Below, piece after piece: positions 54,396 through 64,000 of a stretch of DNA of 64,000 bases. Source of the stretch: Candidatus Roseilinea mizusawaensis (GTDB lineage: Bacteria > Chloroflexota > Anaerolineae > J036 > Brachytrichaceae); NCBI GenBank assembly GCA_016841965.1, contig JAEANN010000022.1, positions 1 to 64,000 of the forward strand, given 5' to 3'. A program made the translations under genes and the position numbers. The notes beneath the pieces are model-generated. The model made no database searches and was not told the origin of the DNA. It saw nothing but the letters and a program-made list of their open reading frames with translations. Each line of letters starts with the position of its first letter. Position 1 is the first letter of the stretch.

Positions 54396-56250
54396 TCGAT
54401 GACGTGCGCTCGCGCGTCACTGCGGCAATCACACAGCGTATCTCGCCATAGTCGATTGAATCGGGCAATAGATACTTGATCGGCGCAAGTTTGTCGGTTG
54501 CACCAACCTGCTCGATGGCGCGGCGCACCTGCATCTCGACTTGTTGACTCACAAGCTGACGCAACGGGATTTGATCGCGAGCGATCAATTGCGCAGCATG
54601 ATGGTAGATCGTGGTGATCGATAATCCGCGTTTAGCAGCCACTTCGCGCACGGACATGCCCTGGGCAAACAGAATGCCGGTCGCCTCAAGTGTCGAAGCC
54701 GGCCCGTTATCGTCCTGGGCGCCTGCGTCCGCCGCTGTTGTGTGCCGGCCGGCAGCCGGCGTCACGTGTGGCAGGCCGCGCGCCAGGCGAATGTGGTAAT
54801 CGCAGCAAGGTTTGGCGCGCGGTTCGCTGGTATCGCCGAAATGCCGCAACAGCATTTCCTGCCGGCATTGTGTGGTGGACTCGGCATAGGCGATCATCTT
54901 GGCAAGTTGGGTGCGCTTGTGTGCGCGGCGCTCTTGAACCTCTGCCGCTGTGGCCTGCAGCGCTGCGTCTGTCAATGCGTGAACGCGGAATGACACGCCA
55001 TATCCCTCATCGTCCAGGCGCTCCAAAGCGCCGGCTTGTTCAAGGTGGAGCATGCCGACCCTGAGCTTGACTTCAAACAAGCGGGTCACGCGTGCTAGCT
55101 CTTCGAGGGACACGCGCGCCACGCCATTGCGCGCGCGAGAGACGATTGCTCTGTGCAAGGCTGCCAGCTCATTGCGCGAGGGGGCATCGTTCTCGATGAA
55201 CCATTCCTGCAACCTGCGATCCTGCGGCGCATACAGCAGCACGCACTGCGCCAGCTTGCCATCCCGGCCGGCGCGCCCGGCTTCCTGGTAATAGGCCTCC
55301 AGGGTGCCAGGGATGTGAAAGTGAGCCACAAAGCGCACGTCGGTCCGATCGACCCCCATGCCAAAGGCATTGGTGGCGATCATGACCGCGTTGGGCGTGT
55401 TGAGATAAGTGTCCTGAGCGGCTGTTCGTTCGCGGCGCTCCATGCCGCCGTGATAGACAAATGTGGGAATCTGATAGTCAGCCTCCAGCGTCAGCGCCAG
55501 TTCGTTGGCCTCGCGGCGGGTGCCCACATAGATGATGCCGGCCCCTTTTACGACGCCCAGCAATTTGCGCAATGCCCGCAACTTGGCGCGCAGGTCGGGC
55601 GTGTGGTGCACGTGAAAGACCAGGTTAGGACGGGCAAAGCCAGTCACAATGCGTTCGACAGACACCAGGCCCAGTTGACGGATGATGTCGTCCTGCACTT
55701 CTGGCGTGGCCGTGGCGGTGAGCGCCACCGTCACCGGCTCATTAAGCAATTTACGCACTGCGCCCAGGTGCAGATAGTCGGGCCGAAAGTCGTGCCCCCA
55801 CTGCGAGATGCAATGCGCCTCGTCAACGGCAAGCAGCGACACGCTGACCTTCTTCAGCGCCGCCAGAAACGCAGGATTGCGCAGCCTTTCAGGAGCAACA
55901 TATACCAGTCGCCAGTCTCCATCCTCCATCTGCCGAATGCGGCGGGCCTGCTCATCTGACGACAACGCGCTGTTGATGTAAGTGGCCGCGATGCCGCGCT
56001 CGCTCAGGTGATCGACTTGATCCTTCATCAATGCAATCAGCGGCGAGATCACCAGCGCAGTGCCAGGCAGAGACAGCGCCGAGAACTGGTAAATGAGCGA
56101 CTTGCCGCTGCCGGTGGGCATCACAACCAGCGTGTTGCGCCGATTGAGAATATGGCTGATGGCCGCGTATTGACCGGGGCGAAAGGCTGACACACCGAAA
56201 TAGTGCGTCAGCAATGACATTGAGATTGCAGGGTGCTGCCCATCTGTCAT
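54379..56250 (-). CDS. recQ: RecQ-family ATP-dependent DNA helicase
   Basis: This 623-residue SF2 helicase has motif 0 FGVSAFRPGQYAAISHIL, motif I VVMPTGSGKSLIYQ, motif II LLAVDEAHCISQWGHDFRPDY, motif III ALTATATPEVQDDIIRQLG and motif VI YYQEAGRAGRDG. A zinc-binding cysteine region follows (CRQEMLLRHFGD and CCDYH). The C-terminal part has a predicted HTH (FAQGMSVREVAAKRGLSITTIY) in place of a typical HRDC domain. RecQ unwinds recombination intermediates. The ATG at 56250 overlaps the stop of the truncated isomerase. The last residues lie in repeat-like sequence. Confidence 0.95.
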   Translation of the reverse strand: MTDGQHPAISMSLLTHYFGVSAFRPGQYAAISHILNRRNTLVVMPTGSGKSLIYQFSALSLPGTALVISPLIALMKDQVDHLSERGIAATYINSALSSDEQARRIRQMEDGDWRLVYVAPERLRNPAFLAALKKVSVSLLAVDEAHCISQWGHDFRPDYLHLGAVRKLLNEPVTVALTATATPEVQDDIIRQLGLVSVERIVTGFARPNLVFHVHHTPDLRAKLRALRKLLGVVKGAGIIYVGTRREANELALTLEADYQIPTFVYHGGMERRERTAAQDTYLNTPNAVMIATNAFGMGVDRTDVRFVAHFHIPGTLEAYYQEAGRAGRDGKLAQCVLLYAPQDRRLQEWFIENDAPSRNELAALHRAIVSRARNGVARVSLEELARVTRLFEVKLRVGMLHLEQAGALERLDDEGYGVSFRVHALTDAALQATAAEVQERRAHKRTQLAKMIAYAESTTQCRQEMLLRHFGDTSEPRAKPCCDYHIRLARGLPHVTPAAGRHTTAADAGAQDDNGPASTLEATGILFAQGMSVREVAAKRGLSITTIYHHAAQLIARDQIPLRQLVSQQVEMQVRRAIEQVGATDKLAPIKYLLPDSIDYGEIRCVIAAVTRERTSSTPPGA

Positions 56251-56798
56251 GAGTGCAACCAAAAGAACCCAATATTGCCGCTTGCGATGGCTGCGCCAAG
56301 CGCGCGCATGCCATCCATCGTATGGATGAAGTCGTACTTGCGGCCGGCGCGCAAGGTGCGCGGGCCGACAAACTGCAGAGCCAGCCAGATGCCATAGGCT
56401 TTGAGCATGTCGGCCACAGACCGCAGCCCGCGTGCAACCAAAGCAAAATGCTCATGAAACGGCAACTCGTTGGAGCAGGGCATGATCCAAGTCGGGCGAC
56501 GGGTCACACCGAATGCGGCGGCCAGTTTGGCTTCGTCTATAAAGCGCGGCAGGCTCTCCACGTACTTTTGTTCGCTATCCCAGTCGCGCCACGCAACGCT
56601 CAGACCGAAGCTGGATGGCTTGAGGCCGGTTGCAGCAAACCATGGCAGGGCTGCCTGGAGTGATTGCGACCGCGCCATGTCAAGCAGGAAAGCAGTATCC
56701 AGGTCGATCCCGGCAAAGTTGTATTGCCAGGCCAGGGCACAGGCCCCGTCGAAGGGCAGCGCATGGCCCAGGGCGCCGACGTTGAGATTTTTGTACAT
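56247..56798 (-). CDS. Sugar-phosphate isomerase/epimerase, C-terminally truncated
   Basis: This 183-residue protein starts MYKNLNVGALGHALPFDGAC and shows a xylose-isomerase-like TIM-barrel N-terminal two-thirds: AGIDLDTAFLLDMARSQ, GLKPSSFGLSVAWRD, IMPCSNELPFHEHFALV and LALQFVGPRTLRAGRKYDF. Members are normally about 270 residues. Here the chain ends at GNIGFFWLHS, where relatives continue toward a DSFHW-type metal site, so roughly a third is missing. The stop overlaps the recQ ATG. A deletion joining the gene to recQ is likely; activity is doubtful. It may be a pseudogene. Confidence 0.7.
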   Translation of the reverse strand: MYKNLNVGALGHALPFDGACALAWQYNFAGIDLDTAFLLDMARSQSLQAALPWFAATGLKPSSFGLSVAWRDWDSEQKYVESLPRFIDEAKLAAAFGVTRRPTWIMPCSNELPFHEHFALVARGLRSVADMLKAYGIWLALQFVGPRTLRAGRKYDFIHTMDGMRALGAAIASGNIGFFWLHS

Positions 56799-56909
56799 GG
56801 CCGGTATTGTAGTCGCGGCCATGCTAGGGCGAAGGGAAACGTCAATCCCCGGCCCTGAATCATTCTCCAGCATTTCTCAAGCGTTGCTCTAAGGATAGCG
56901 ATGTAGAGG

Positions 56910-56915
56910 AGTACA
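56910..56915 (+). promoter_or_regulatory. -10-like box (TACAAT) of the DnaJ-like gene
   Basis: TACAAT lies about 38 bases before the ATG at 56954. No CIRCE element or heat-shock sigma box is seen. Confidence 0.35.
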
Positions 56916-56953
56916 ATTCCATGGCACTCTGGGTTTTAATCTTGTGACGCGGT

Positions 56954-57856
56954 ATGGAGTACAAAGACTATTACAAGACGCTTGGCGTTGAGCGGAACGC
57001 CGATGAGGAAACCATCAAGAAGGCGTATCGTAAACTGGCGCGCCAGTTCCACCCCGACGTCAACAAGGGCGACAAAAAGGCAGAAGAGCGCTTCAAGGAG
57101 ATCAATGAGGCATACGAAGTCCTGGGCGATCAGGAGAAGCGCAAGATGTACGACCGGCTGGGCAGCGATTATCAACGCTACCAGCAGGCCGGCGGCGACC
57201 CGCGCGCATACAACTGGGCGCAATGGTTCAACCAGGCCGGCCAAGGGCAAGCCGGCGGGAACGTGCGCATCGAAGACCTGGACCTGGGCGATTTGTTTGC
57301 CCAATTCTTTGGCGAAACCGGCGGCTTCCAGCGCACACGCAGCCGGCCGCGCGACCTGGAGCAGCCTGTCACCATTACCCTGGCCGAGGCCTACCACGGT
57401 ACGACGCGCATTCTGAGCAAAGATGGCGAGGAGATCGAAGTGAAAATTCCGGCCGGCGTCAAAACCGGCTCGAAAGTGCGCGTGCGTGGCCAAGGCCTAC
57501 GCAACAACAGAGGCGAGGCCGGCGATCTGTACCTGATCGTCGAGGTCGCGCCCGATGCAACTTACGAACGCCGGGACGATGACCTGTACCGCGATGTCAA
57601 GATAGACGCCTTCACCGCTATGCTGGGCGGCGAAGTGAAAGTGCCAACCCTCGGCGGCGATGTGATGGTCAAAGTTCCGGCCGGCACGTCATCGGGCAGC
57701 CGAATCCGCCTGCGCGGCAAAGGCATGCCACGCCTGGCAGCCAGGGGCGAGCACGGCGACCTTTACCTACGCGTGATGATCACTGTGCCCACTGATCTGA
57801 CGGAAGAAGAGCGGCAAGCCCTGCACAAGATGGCGCGTCGGCGCGGGATCGGCTAA
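56954..57856 (+). CDS. DnaJ-class co-chaperone without zinc finger (CbpA type)
   Basis: This 300-residue protein has a J domain ([22 protein letters not shown] at 33-35), a glycine/phenylalanine-containing linker (about 75-115), and two C-terminal beta domains ([17 protein letters not shown] and [20 protein letters not shown]). The CxxCxGxG zinc region of true DnaJ is missing, so it is CbpA-like. It stimulates DnaK ATPase and presents clients. No dnaK or grpE is nearby. The length is typical. Confidence 0.93.
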
Positions 57857-57930
57857 CCGTCGGTCATCCCATCCCACGCCTCAACCATACGCAGGATATA
57901 AAAGCCGCTTGTTTTGTTGGCTGCCGCACC

Positions 57931-60702
<2,772 letters not shown>

Positions 60703-60727
60703 GGGGTCATTCTAAAACACGGGCAAG

Positions 60728-61138
60728 TCAGCCGGCCAGAGGCCAATCCACCACAGCATGCCGTTGCACAACGATCAAGGGATGACCATCGGCGGGCTGC
60801 AGCCCAATTGCAGCCAGATCCCACCACACCACATTGCCCACCAGCACTTCGCCAGAGCGCAGTCTCAGCTCTGCCGGGCGGCTTTCACTGCTGACAGCCA
60901 ACAAATAATCGGACAGACTACGGCGCGATCGGGCGCGATGCCACATCAGTTCCTCGACCGGCACACCGTAGCAGCCGGCCAGACTACGCACTATATCTTC
61001 ATCGCTGGTGTCGCGGTAGCGCAGCTCGATGTGACGCACCTTGCGCCGATCGGCCTCATCTAGCTGCGCGGTGATCACGCTAATCGGCGGTCCGCCGCGC
61101 ATCGCGCGCAAAAAGCGCAGGTGATCGCCCAGGCTCAT
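60728..61138 (-). CDS. Small XRE-like HTH protein with a C-terminal Sm-like segment
   Basis: This 136-residue protein is unrecognised by name. Residues 4-66 align with an XRE helix-turn-helix pattern (LRFLRAMRGG at the start and IVRSLAGCYGVPVEELM at the end). Residues about 88-133 (AELRLRSGEVLVGNVVWWDL and LIVVQRHAVV) give the strand-turn order of an Hfq/LSm fold: a short strand pair with a conserved glycine, then a last strand with HAV-like residues as in Hfq's YKHAI. Its ATG overlaps the stop of the larger upstream gene (ATGA), so both are made together. The Sm assignment is by pattern only. Confidence 0.65.
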   Translation of the reverse strand: MSLGDHLRFLRAMRGGPPISVITAQLDEADRRKVRHIELRYRDTSDEDIVRSLAGCYGVPVEELMWHRARSRRSLSDYLLAVSSESRPAELRLRSGEVLVGNVVWWDLAAIGLQPADGHPLIVVQRHAVVDWPLAG

Positions 61139-61989
61139 GCTGTCACCTCTGCTTCGCGCGTGTAATAGGCAATGGCCAGCTTTTGCAGGGTGGTCTCGCG
61201 CCCATCTTCCAGGCGCAACGTCAAAGCATACGGACTGAACCCAATCAGATGGCCGCTGAATGTCTCTTTATTGAACAGTTTCACGCTCAGACGCGCGCCG
61301 GCGTGTTGGGCGTTGGTGAGATATTTCATCTCAAAGGCATCCACCGCCTCGGGCAATATCGCCCGTTTGGATTGGCCTGGCATCTTGTTGCCAAACGACT
61401 GACTGCTCAGGCGCTCGTATTGCTCACGCAGCCAGGCGCGCGCCTCACGCGCAGTAAGCTGCTGCACCGGCTTGCCCAAATCTGCCACCAGCTCCTCGGG
61501 CAACAAGCCCAGGCGTTTGGCTAGCGCGTCAATGGCTTTGAGTTGAGCCTGGCTGACCGGCGCAGGTTCTTTTGGCGCAGGCGCAGCAGAAGCGAGCGCA
61601 GCAGAAGCGAGCGTAGCAGAAGCGAGCGCAGCAGAAGCAGGCGCTGCAGAAGCGGGCGCAGCAGAAGCGGGCGCTGAGGCTGGTTTGGGCTGCGCCGGCG
61701 GGCGCGCAGCCGGGCGAGACGCAGGACGATTTGCCGGGCGTCCCCGCGCAGGGGGATTTCCCCTGCCCCGCTCTGGTGATCGCGGTAACACCGGCGGCGG
61801 ATCCGATCGCACTTTTAGAACATCCACCCCGACATATAACGCGCGCGCCAGTTTCACATGATCCTGAGGGCGCAATGCCCGCCCTCCTTCGTATTGCCGC
61901 AGCACGGGAACAGGAATACCGGTTCGCACGCCTAGCTGCTCAAGCGTCAAACCTTTCATCTTGCGCAATTTCCACAGATTTTCAGGCAT
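61135..61989 (-). CDS. XRE-HTH protein with Ala-rich linker and C-terminal Hfq/Sm-like domain
   Basis: This 284-residue protein has four parts. Residues 3-58 form a classic XRE HTH (WKLRKMKGLTLEQLGVRTGI and VLRQYEGGRAL). Residues 62-145 form a Pro/Arg-rich then Ala-rich linker encoded by six 15-bp repeats. Residues 148-185 (KAIDALAKRLGLLPEELV and LTAREARAWL) match a helical motif found in many phage and recombination proteins. Residues 218-280 read as an Sm fold: RLSVKLFNKETFSGHLIGFS, YALTLRL, then LQKLAIAYYTRE as in Hfq. The ATG at 61989 is the first that preserves the HTH start. It may bind DNA or RNA, or both. Confidence 0.72.
   Translation of the reverse strand: MPENLWKLRKMKGLTLEQLGVRTGIPVPVLRQYEGGRALRPQDHVKLARALYVGVDVLKVRSDPPPVLPRSPERGRGNPPARGRPANRPASRPAARPPAQPKPASAPASAAPASAAPASAALASATLASAALASAAPAPKEPAPVSQAQLKAIDALAKRLGLLPEELVADLGKPVQQLTAREARAWLREQYERLSSQSFGNKMPGQSKRAILPEAVDAFEMKYLTNAQHAGARLSVKLFNKETFSGHLIGFSPYALTLRLEDGRETTLQKLAIAYYTREAEVTA
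61583..61672 (-). repeat. 15-bp minisatellite (6 copies) inside the XRE-Sm gene
   Basis: GCAGCAGAAGCGAGC and five close variants are repeated in frame, encoding the five-residue unit ASAAP/ASAAL of the linker. Frame is kept by the multiple-of-three unit, so length could vary without disrupting the domains. Confidence 0.9.
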
Positions 61990-62088
61990 GGCAACAGTAT
62001 GCCACAACCAGCATCCCTTCCACAGTCAATCCAGTTATAGTTGATAGACCAGTGGCGTGAGCCAACAAAAATTGGAGAACAGAGCACC

Positions 62089-62895
62089 ATGTATCTGCAA
62101 AATCGAGTAGCGATTGTCACAGGCGCGAGCAAGGAGATTGGCGCAGCTATGGCTGTGGCGCTGGCGCGTGAAGGCGCAGCAGTTGTGGCGCACTATGCAA
62201 CAGATTCGGCGCCGGCCCAGGCTGTTGTAAATCGCATTGTGGCAGAGGGGGGACGTGCGATTCTGTTTGGCTGCGATTGTAGCCGCGTGTCTGATAACAT
62301 GGCTTTGGCCCAGGCTGCCATTGATGCTTTTGGCCGGCTGGATATCTTTGTCGCCAACGCCGGCATCACTCGCTTTGGCGCATTCCTCTCTTACACCGAG
62401 GCAGACTACGATAGCGTGCTCGACTTGAACTTGAAGGGCAGCTTCTTCGGCGCGCAAGCTGCGGCCCGACACATGATCGCGCAGCGACGCCAACACCCAG
62501 AAGACACTTACGGCGGACGGATCGTGTTCAGCTCTTCCGTCGCCGGGAGTGTGGCTATTCCGGGCCTGGCCGCTTATGGCGCGAGTAAAGCCGGCCTCAA
62601 CCATCTGGCAAAAACACTGGCCGTCGAGCTGGGGCCTTATGGCATCACTGTGAATGCACTCGGCATTGGGCCAACCACCAATACCCGCAATCTGCGCGAC
62701 GATCCTCAGTATGAGGAACATTGGGCCAGCTTGCTGCCGATTGGCCGGGCGATGCGCCCGGAGGATTCAGCAGCAGCACTGATGTACCTCGTCTCGCCGG
62801 CTGCATCTGGCGTCACGGGCGCGACGCTGATGGTTGAAGGCGGCCAGTCGCTGCAATCGGTGTTGCCGGCAGCCGAGTTGGAGCGGGGCCGATAA
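62089..62895 (+). CDS. Short-chain dehydrogenase/reductase (FabG-like)
   Basis: This 268-residue SDR has the nucleotide motif VAIVTGASKEIGAAMAVALA, the N-A-G motif VANAGITRFG, the catalytic Ser in FSSSVAGSVA, the YxxxK motif YGASKAGLNHLAK, and the C-terminal VTGATLMVEGG. It reduces or oxidises a carbonyl/alcohol using NAD(P). The ATG at 62089 has GGAGAA upstream. It lies eight bases from the FGGY kinase start; together they may act on a sugar acid such as gluconate. Substrate is not certain. Confidence 0.9.
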   Translation: MYLQNRVAIVTGASKEIGAAMAVALAREGAAVVAHYATDSAPAQAVVNRIVAEGGRAILFGCDCSRVSDNMALAQAAIDAFGRLDIFVANAGITRFGAFLSYTEADYDSVLDLNLKGSFFGAQAAARHMIAQRRQHPEDTYGGRIVFSSSVAGSVAIPGLAAYGASKAGLNHLAKTLAVELGPYGITVNALGIGPTTNTRNLRDDPQYEEHWASLLPIGRAMRPEDSAAALMYLVSPAASGVTGATLMVEGGQSLQSVLPAAELERGR

Positions 62896-62903
62896 ACACG
62901 ACG

Positions 62904-64000
62904 ATGGTTCTGGTGCTCGACCTGGGCAGTTCGGCGACCCGCGCCCTGCTCTACGATGAACAGGCGCAATTGCAAAGCAACACGATTGCTCGCCAACCCT
63001 TCGAGTTTCGCGCCGGGGCAGATGGCCGCAGCGAAGACGATCCAGATGCCGCCCTGACGCGCGTCGAAGCCGTCATCGACGGGGCGCTCTCCGGCGCACA
63101 GATTGGACAGTCACCCATCAGGGCGATCGGCATCTCGGCGTACGCATGCAGCTTGCTATGCCTGGATGAGCGCGGCAATCCACTCACCCCTGTGTTCACC
63201 TACGCAGACACGCGCGCCGCAGAGGATGCGCGGGCGCTGCGGCATGAGCTGGATGAGATCGCGGCGCTTCAACGCACCGGCTGCAGGATTCGCGCCAATT
63301 ACTGGCCGGCGCGCCTGGCCTGGCTCAAACGCACGCAGCCGGCTGTGTTCAGCCGGACGCGCTGGTTCGTCTCGCTAGCCGACTACCTTGGTCTGAAACT
63401 GTTCGGCCGATTGCGCGCCGGCATTTCAACCTCCTCGTGGAGCGGGATGCTCGACCGGCAGACCGGCGATTGGGACGAGACATGGCTCACGCACCTGGGC
63501 ATCGCGCGCGATCAATTGCCGCCTGTTGCGCAAGATGGCGAGACGTTGCGCGGGTTGGCCGGCCGGTATGCCAGGCGCTGGCCGGCCCTGCGCGAGGCAG
63601 CGTATTACCCGCCGTTGGGCGACGGCGCTGCAGCCAATCTCGGCAGCGGCTGCGTGGACGACTCGCGCATTGCGATCACCATTGGCAGCACCGCTGCGAT
63701 TCGCGTCGTTATCGGTCGTCGGTCGTCGGTTGCCAGTAGTCAGAACACAGAAGACAGAGCACAGAATACACAATACGCGACACGCAATCCAGCGCATGAG
63801 ATGCGGGGGGTGGAAATCCCCCCGGCGCTGTGGTTGTACCGCGTCGACCATACGCGCGACCTGATCGGCGGAGCGACCACCGAAGGCGGCAATGTGTTTG
63901 CCTGGCTGCACGCCACACTGAAGCTGCCGGATAGCAACGCGCTGGAAGCTGAGTTGAGCGCCATGCGCCCGGATGGTCATGGGCTGACGGTGTTGCCCAT
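62904..64000 (+). CDS. FGGY-family carbohydrate kinase (gluconokinase-like), partial, with an in-frame repeat insertion
   Basis: The gene starts at ATG 62904 and runs off the window; 365 codons are seen. The N-terminal part has LVLDLGSSATRALLYD, YADTRAAEDARAL, GDGAAANLGSGCV and ITIGSTAAIRVVI, and resumes at PPALWLYRVDHTRDLIGGATTEGGN. Between these two blocks, where relatives have a few residues, there are about 28 (residues 271-298: RRSSVASSQNTEDRAQ onward) encoded by a 7-bp-period repeat. The frame is kept. It would phosphorylate a sugar such as gluconate. The insertion lies near the ATPase core and may reduce activity. It is probably co-transcribed with the SDR. Confidence 0.85.
   Translation, partial: MVLVLDLGSSATRALLYDEQAQLQSNTIARQPFEFRAGADGRSEDDPDAALTRVEAVIDGALSGAQIGQSPIRAIGISAYACSLLCLDERGNPLTPVFTYADTRAAEDARALRHELDEIAALQRTGCRIRANYWPARLAWLKRTQPAVFSRTRWFVSLADYLGLKLFGRLRAGISTSSWSGMLDRQTGDWDETWLTHLGIARDQLPPVAQDGETLRGLAGRYARRWPALREAAYYPPLGDGAAANLGSGCVDDSRIAITIGSTAAIRVVIGRRSSVASSQNTEDRAQNTQYATRNPAHEMRGVEIPPALWLYRVDHTRDLIGGATTEGGNVFAWLHATLKLPDSNALEAELSAMRPDGHGLTVLP
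63712..63790 (+). repeat. Heptamer repeat inserted in frame inside the FGGY kinase gene
   Basis: Units AGAACAC, AGAAGAC, AGAGCAC, AGAATAC, ACAATAC and GCGACAC follow GTCGGTC-type units, in 7-base phase. The same words occur in the intergenic array at 20174-20262. The insert adds about 28 codons without a stop. Confidence 0.85.

Follow-up and report, generated by a model that had tools for sequence, protein, structure and literature searches.

The locus studied here raises the question of what a bacterium might do with two adjacent genes whose products each join a helix-turn-helix (HTH) type of domain to a domain homologous to Hfq. The pair lies on the minus strand of the window, that is, the whole stretch of 64,000 nucleotides analysed from Candidatus Roseilinea mizusawaensis (Chloroflexota; contig JAEANN010000022.1, positions 1 to 64,000). 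Hfq is usually viewed as a small stand-alone RNA chaperone built of identical subunits. We are aware of no report that places an Hfq domain in a DNA-binding protein, and none was found in the part of the literature covered. The pair suggests a switch through which transcription could be controlled by RNA, or by single-stranded DNA (ssDNA), in bacteria mostly without ordinary Hfq.

The gene pair and the layout of its products

The features of the locus are as follows.

61135 to 61989, minus strand: larger gene, 284 aa (XRE HTH followed by a basic, disordered linker, a three-helix unit and an Hfq-like domain)
61795 to 61989, minus strand: XRE-type HTH, larger protein residues 1-65 (HTH_3 over cut-off; pLDDT about 94-97)
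61561 to 61794, minus strand: Pro/Ala/Arg-rich low-complexity linker, larger protein about residues 66-143 (predicted disordered; pLDDT 40-60)
61381 to 61560, minus strand: three-helix unit without known family, larger protein about residues 144-203 (pLDDT 93-97)
61138 to 61350, minus strand: Hfq-like (Sm) domain, larger protein residues 214-284 (family profile, AlphaFold2, Foldseek, VIA)
61135 to 61138, minus strand: ATGA stop/start overlap of the larger and smaller genes (open reading frame positions; a 4-base overlap in most loci)
60728 to 61138, minus strand: smaller gene, 136 aa (XRE-like helical domain and Hfq-like domain)
60935 to 61138, minus strand: XRE-like helical domain, smaller protein residues 1-68 (five helices; degenerate in the window member)
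60731 to 60925, minus strand: Hfq-like (Sm) domain, smaller protein residues 72-136 (Hfq_1, family profile, AlphaFold2, Foldseek)
57931 to 60702, minus strand: aconitase gene, 25 bp downstream of the pair on the same strand

The first-pass annotation had described two adjacent genes overlapping by ATGA, and both open reading frames were recovered on the minus strand as listed. The ATG at 61989 is taken as the start of the larger gene; translation could also begin at a TTG lying six codons further upstream. Just upstream of this ATG, the sequence TTGTGGCATACTG (61995-62007, minus strand) is identical in the compared members of the genus and is kept even in locus L060, whose upstream region has otherwise diverged. 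It could serve a leaderless transcript as a -10-like box, or else represent an upstream TTG start.

The N-terminus is of the XRE type in both proteins, clearly in the larger and more weakly in the smaller. In the larger protein, the HTH called by the first-pass annotation was recognised by Pfam as HTH_3 (27.8 bits; cut-off 23), and 14 of 19 relatives have a domain of the HTH_3 class. The same call for the smaller protein is less certain: HTH_31 was matched by 8/19 of its relatives, but the window protein itself had no HTH recognised by Pfam. The AlphaFold2 model of the smaller protein has a mean pLDDT of 93.5, with a helix at residues 72-84 and strands between residues 89 and 131. Its structural neighbours in VIA include HigA, DdrO and CI, at Z values of 5.7-6.8, which is a middling range.

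AlphaFold2 predicted three confident units in the larger protein, namely the HTH (1-65), three helices (144-203) and the Sm domain (214-283), with a disordered stretch separating the HTH from the three helices. This linker is net positive in 48 of the 49 relatives counted, its boundary being approximate. Several lineages show an abundance of RG, YGG or GGRP in this linker or in the smaller protein's tail. Long repeats of the RG/YGG/QDRP type occur in the linker at L021, L022, L029-L031, L046 and L064, and a GGRP-type tail occurs in the smaller protein at L007 and L029-L031. The middle helices had been read as a motif of phage recombination proteins. This reading was not confirmed: the unit is predicted with confidence, but no known family was found for it. 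Sequence searches gave no credible PDB family match, and the PHROG matches were weak and all to families of unknown function. By alignment, the unit is missing from the f80 relative L007.

Homology of the C-terminal domains to Hfq

Both proteins carry a C-terminal Sm domain homologous to Hfq. The Sm calls had originally been made by eye, and both family profiles now bear them out. The profile of the larger protein, built from six C-termini and searched against all PDB sequences, matched about three dozen Hfq entries (best E = 1.8e-6), with the first non-Hfq entry at 0.12. The profile of the smaller family matched Hfq at 8.9e-7, and its first non-Hfq entry stood at 0.95. In Pfam, the smaller protein matched Hfq_1 (PF21979, 'Hfq related') at 27.6 bits, above the cut-off of 27, while the larger protein scored 14.3 bits, below the threshold. 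The NCBIfam model of cyanobacterial Hfq-related proteins also matched the smaller protein, below the model cut-off. The smaller protein reads QRHAV where Hfq has YKHAI. Among the relatives, Hfq_1 was matched by 16/19 and Hfq by 7/19 of the smaller proteins, and Hfq was matched by 11/19 of the larger ones; several relatives of the larger protein exceed the PF17209 cut-off. The two Sm domains can also be aligned with each other by profile-profile comparison (probability 97, E = 3.5e-11).

The predicted structures agree with this homology. Both C-termini were modelled by AlphaFold2 with high confidence as a helix followed by five strands, the Sm fold that had been proposed, and Foldseek against the PDB ranked Hfq first for both models. 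For the larger protein, the listed top rows were all Hfq, with TM-scores mostly of 0.8-0.9 and an rmsd near 1 Å in many alignments. VIA superposed this domain on E. coli Hfq 5uk7 with a Z of 11.8 and 1.2 Å over 66 residues. For the smaller model, VIA gave middling Z values near 6, at which Hfq, XRE repressors and WYL-DriD chains were intermixed, so the sequence evidence weighs more than the structural evidence for this protein.

Pairing, distribution and neighbourhood

Early searches recovered few relatives (7/301 genomes with a single sequence and 7/400 with a six-row profile), and fuller profiles were needed. With these, the small-protein profile gave strong matches (E below 1e-40) in 42/298 Anaerolineae genomes, and the Sm profile of the larger protein, at E below 1e-20, picked out the identical 42 genomes. 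Under the assumption of independent genomes, which does not hold, such co-occurrence would have a chance probability of 3.5e-52. The expectation that the two genes go together was thus confirmed, as the same genomes carry both side by side. In total, 60 loci were collected, of which 52 are non-redundant pairs, and at least 52 different Chloroflexota genomes keep the two genes together. Both genes are on one strand in 60/60 loci, most with the 4-base overlap. The only break in adjacency was seen at L017 (485-1618) and, with the same spacing, at L044, where an alcohol-dehydrogenase-like gene lies between the larger and the smaller gene; these are two of the 60 loci and one non-redundant pair. 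The genes around the pair vary between lineages. With a neighbourhood otherwise unconserved, the linkage is between the larger and smaller genes themselves. The two are passed on as a single, translationally coupled unit. The correlation of large and small distances (r = 0.84) and the tree of pairs speak for joint inheritance only, and are not evidence of contact.

The distribution of the pair is patchy. About 14% of the sampled Anaerolineae carry it, and in the window's own family it was found in one genus only among the genomes sampled. A GTDB-wide scan with a motif, which is narrow, found pair members in Chloroflexota only. Two candidates were not counted as relatives: L008, where about half of the query was covered inside a large unrelated open reading frame, and L032 (Planctomycetales), none of whose open reading frames matched either Sm profile. 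No match was found to the small protein in phage records or to the large protein in plasmid records, and viral contigs gave nothing beyond 14-residue matches.

The aconitase gene lies downstream on the pair's strand in every genus member seen (the window, L016, L048 and L060), at a greater distance in L060, and this linkage is confined to the window's genus. Aconitases can bind RNA in other organisms. No known RNA family was found within 56000-64000. Upstream of the pair, no operator palindrome is shared family-wide: exact sharing extended to at most two sequences, the same as in shuffles. In four related loci of family f83 (L068, L087, L088 and L089), a dyad such as CACGGTCGAACCGTG lies upstream of the larger gene with small changes and is possibly an autoregulatory operator; it was not found across the wider family.

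The pair had also been proposed as a substitute for Hfq in this phylum. For the phylum as a whole this is not supported, given a pair in 42/298 Anaerolineae and stand-alone Hfq-like genes in some Chloroflexota. Most sampled Chloroflexota have neither the pair nor a stand-alone gene. The stand-alone short Hfq-like open reading frames were seen in a few (L033, L038 and L077-L079), some of these genomes being fragmented or partly contaminated; at L033, a gene resembling a DNA methyltransferase adjoins the open reading frame. A published survey distinguishes classic from 'mobile' Hfq (PMC11607428). In the genome of Ca. R. mizusawaensis (99% complete), nothing matched PF17209 at the threshold used, and PF21979 was matched by the small gene alone.

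Pocket residues divided between the two proteins

The uridine pocket of Hfq is formed by Gln8, Phe42, Lys56 and His57 and spans adjacent subunits, which are joined by pairing of strands beta4 and beta5 (PMC5379935). We compared these positions (E. coli Hfq numbering) in the 52 non-redundant pairs. In the larger Sm domain, Gln8 is replaced by Glu (52/52), residue 42 is Tyr or Phe (52/52) and Lys56 is invariant (52/52), while position 41 is Pro in 50/52 and His57 is replaced by Leu in 50/52. The smaller Sm domain has Asp40 and Arg at 56 in 52/52 and His57 in 48/52; its residue 42 is small, mostly Gly or Ala, and its position 8 is mostly Leu. Gln8 and Gln41 are lost in both. The proximal pocket is therefore complete in neither subunit alone and is split across both. 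We prefer a mixed assembly chiefly because the pocket residues of the two Sm domains are complementary.

Proposed mechanism and alternative explanations

We believe that the pair may form a two-subunit transcription regulator with an Hfq-type sensor module, a reading drawn from homology, pairing and the residue split to which we give an even chance. The two Hfq domains would join through the Sm beta4-beta5 contact, giving a mixed ring, for example (large-small)3, or a smaller hetero-oligomer. Composite ligand pockets would take the aromatic 42 and residue 8 from the larger protein and Arg56-His57 from the smaller. They would bind single-stranded RNA, or less likely ssDNA, with assistance from the basic, in places RG-rich, linker. 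Ligand binding would alter the placement of the XRE domains on operator DNA, and the level of RNA (or ssDNA) would thereby set transcription. The profile and fold homology to Hfq, the XRE HTH above its cut-off, the strict co-occurrence and adjacency, the complementary invariance at pocket positions and the positive linkers argue for this regulator. So does the precedent of PafBC and DriD, in which an HTH is combined with an Sm-fold (WYL) domain and regulation is triggered by ssDNA. Against it, RNA binding could be lost or altered, since neither domain has a full proximal pocket. In cyanobacteria, Hfq-type proteins work by way of a protein partner. Joint inheritance is no proof of physical contact, the HTH of the smaller window protein escapes Pfam, and no operator palindrome shared across the family was found. 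The fuller form of the proposal, a natural mixed Hfq-type ring that has two kinds of subunit, composite RNA pockets and attached DNA-binding domains and that reads RNA directly to control transcription, is more tentative and in our judgement somewhat more likely to be wrong than right.

Other explanations read the same data differently. The ring might act mainly on RNA, as a chaperone or riboregulator in place of Hfq, with the XRE domains merely anchoring it to the nucleoid or holding the complex together. The Pfam results in the pair's own genome would suit such a role, as would the resemblance of the RG/YGG-rich linkers and tails of several lineages to RNA-binding proteins. We consider it unlikely, given the patchy presence, the DNA-binding domain retained on the larger protein in most relatives, and the loss of the rim arginines and of the full proximal pocket; in addition, genome G550 has the pair plus a stand-alone Hfq-like gene. 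The missing pocket residues are, in turn, what speaks for Hfq-like domains that serve as oligomerisation modules or protein docks in an otherwise ordinary XRE regulator, whose ligand would be a small molecule if it has one at all, and the closest curated family of the smaller protein is indeed the 'Hfq related' type. But a kept ligand site is suggested in the smaller protein by an Arg that never varies and a His that rarely does, both at the RNA position, and in the larger by the invariant aromatic and Lys, and the linkers are basic, so we regard this reading as improbable. Equally improbable in our view is a damage sensor like PafBC or DriD, in which a plain heterodimer would bind ssDNA through its Sm modules and switch on DNA-repair genes. 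The layout is that of PafBC, a tandem pair of HTH and Sm-fold proteins (PMC6789036), and the neighbours found by structure for the smaller model include DriD-ssDNA entries (Z 6.0 and 5.9). However, these Z values are not above those of Hfq or XRE chains, the sequence homology is to Hfq and not to WYL, Pfam found no WYL domain in either window protein up to E = 5, and no repair genes are conserved near the pair.

Overall, the domain architecture and the pairing are confirmed as real and conserved, and the mixed ring with its link between RNA and transcription is a well-motivated hypothesis. If true, Hfq domains on XRE DNA-binding proteins would link RNA to transcription directly in hardware, and the Sm fold would have given rise to nucleic-acid-sensing regulators by a second route besides WYL. 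The assembly would possibly be a bacterial hetero-Sm ring, an echo of the mixed Sm/LSm rings of eukaryotes. Almost no RNA-based regulation is known from this phylum, and the pair is an object on which it could be tested.

Comparison with known systems

Like Hfq (PF17209) and its 'Hfq related' counterpart (PF21979), both proteins have an Sm fold with an N-terminal helix, Gly34 and Lys/Arg56, together with significant profile matches; the larger shares the aromatic 42 and the smaller His57. Unlike those short single-domain proteins, the window Sm domains are fused to XRE-type domains, with a long linker and extra helices, and come as two unlike paralogs between which the pocket residues are divided. 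PafBC is made up of two adjacent HTH-WYL proteins, with ssDNA bound by WYL domains of the Sm fold (PMC6789036, PMC11804915), and DriD is an HTH and Sm-fold (WYL) regulator triggered by ssDNA (PMC12340889). The window pair shares with them the order of an HTH followed by an Sm-fold domain, and with PafBC the two adjacent genes; a nucleic-acid-sensing transcription factor is, for the window pair, a working model only. It differs in having an Hfq-type instead of a WYL domain, an XRE HTH and no WCX domain seen, in coming from a different phylum, and in being known from sequence and predicted models. With the XRE/Cro-CI regulators (HTH_3, HTH_31), the larger protein and several small relatives have the N-terminal HTH in common, whereas in the window pair the Hfq domain takes the place of the usual C-terminal partners of such regulators.
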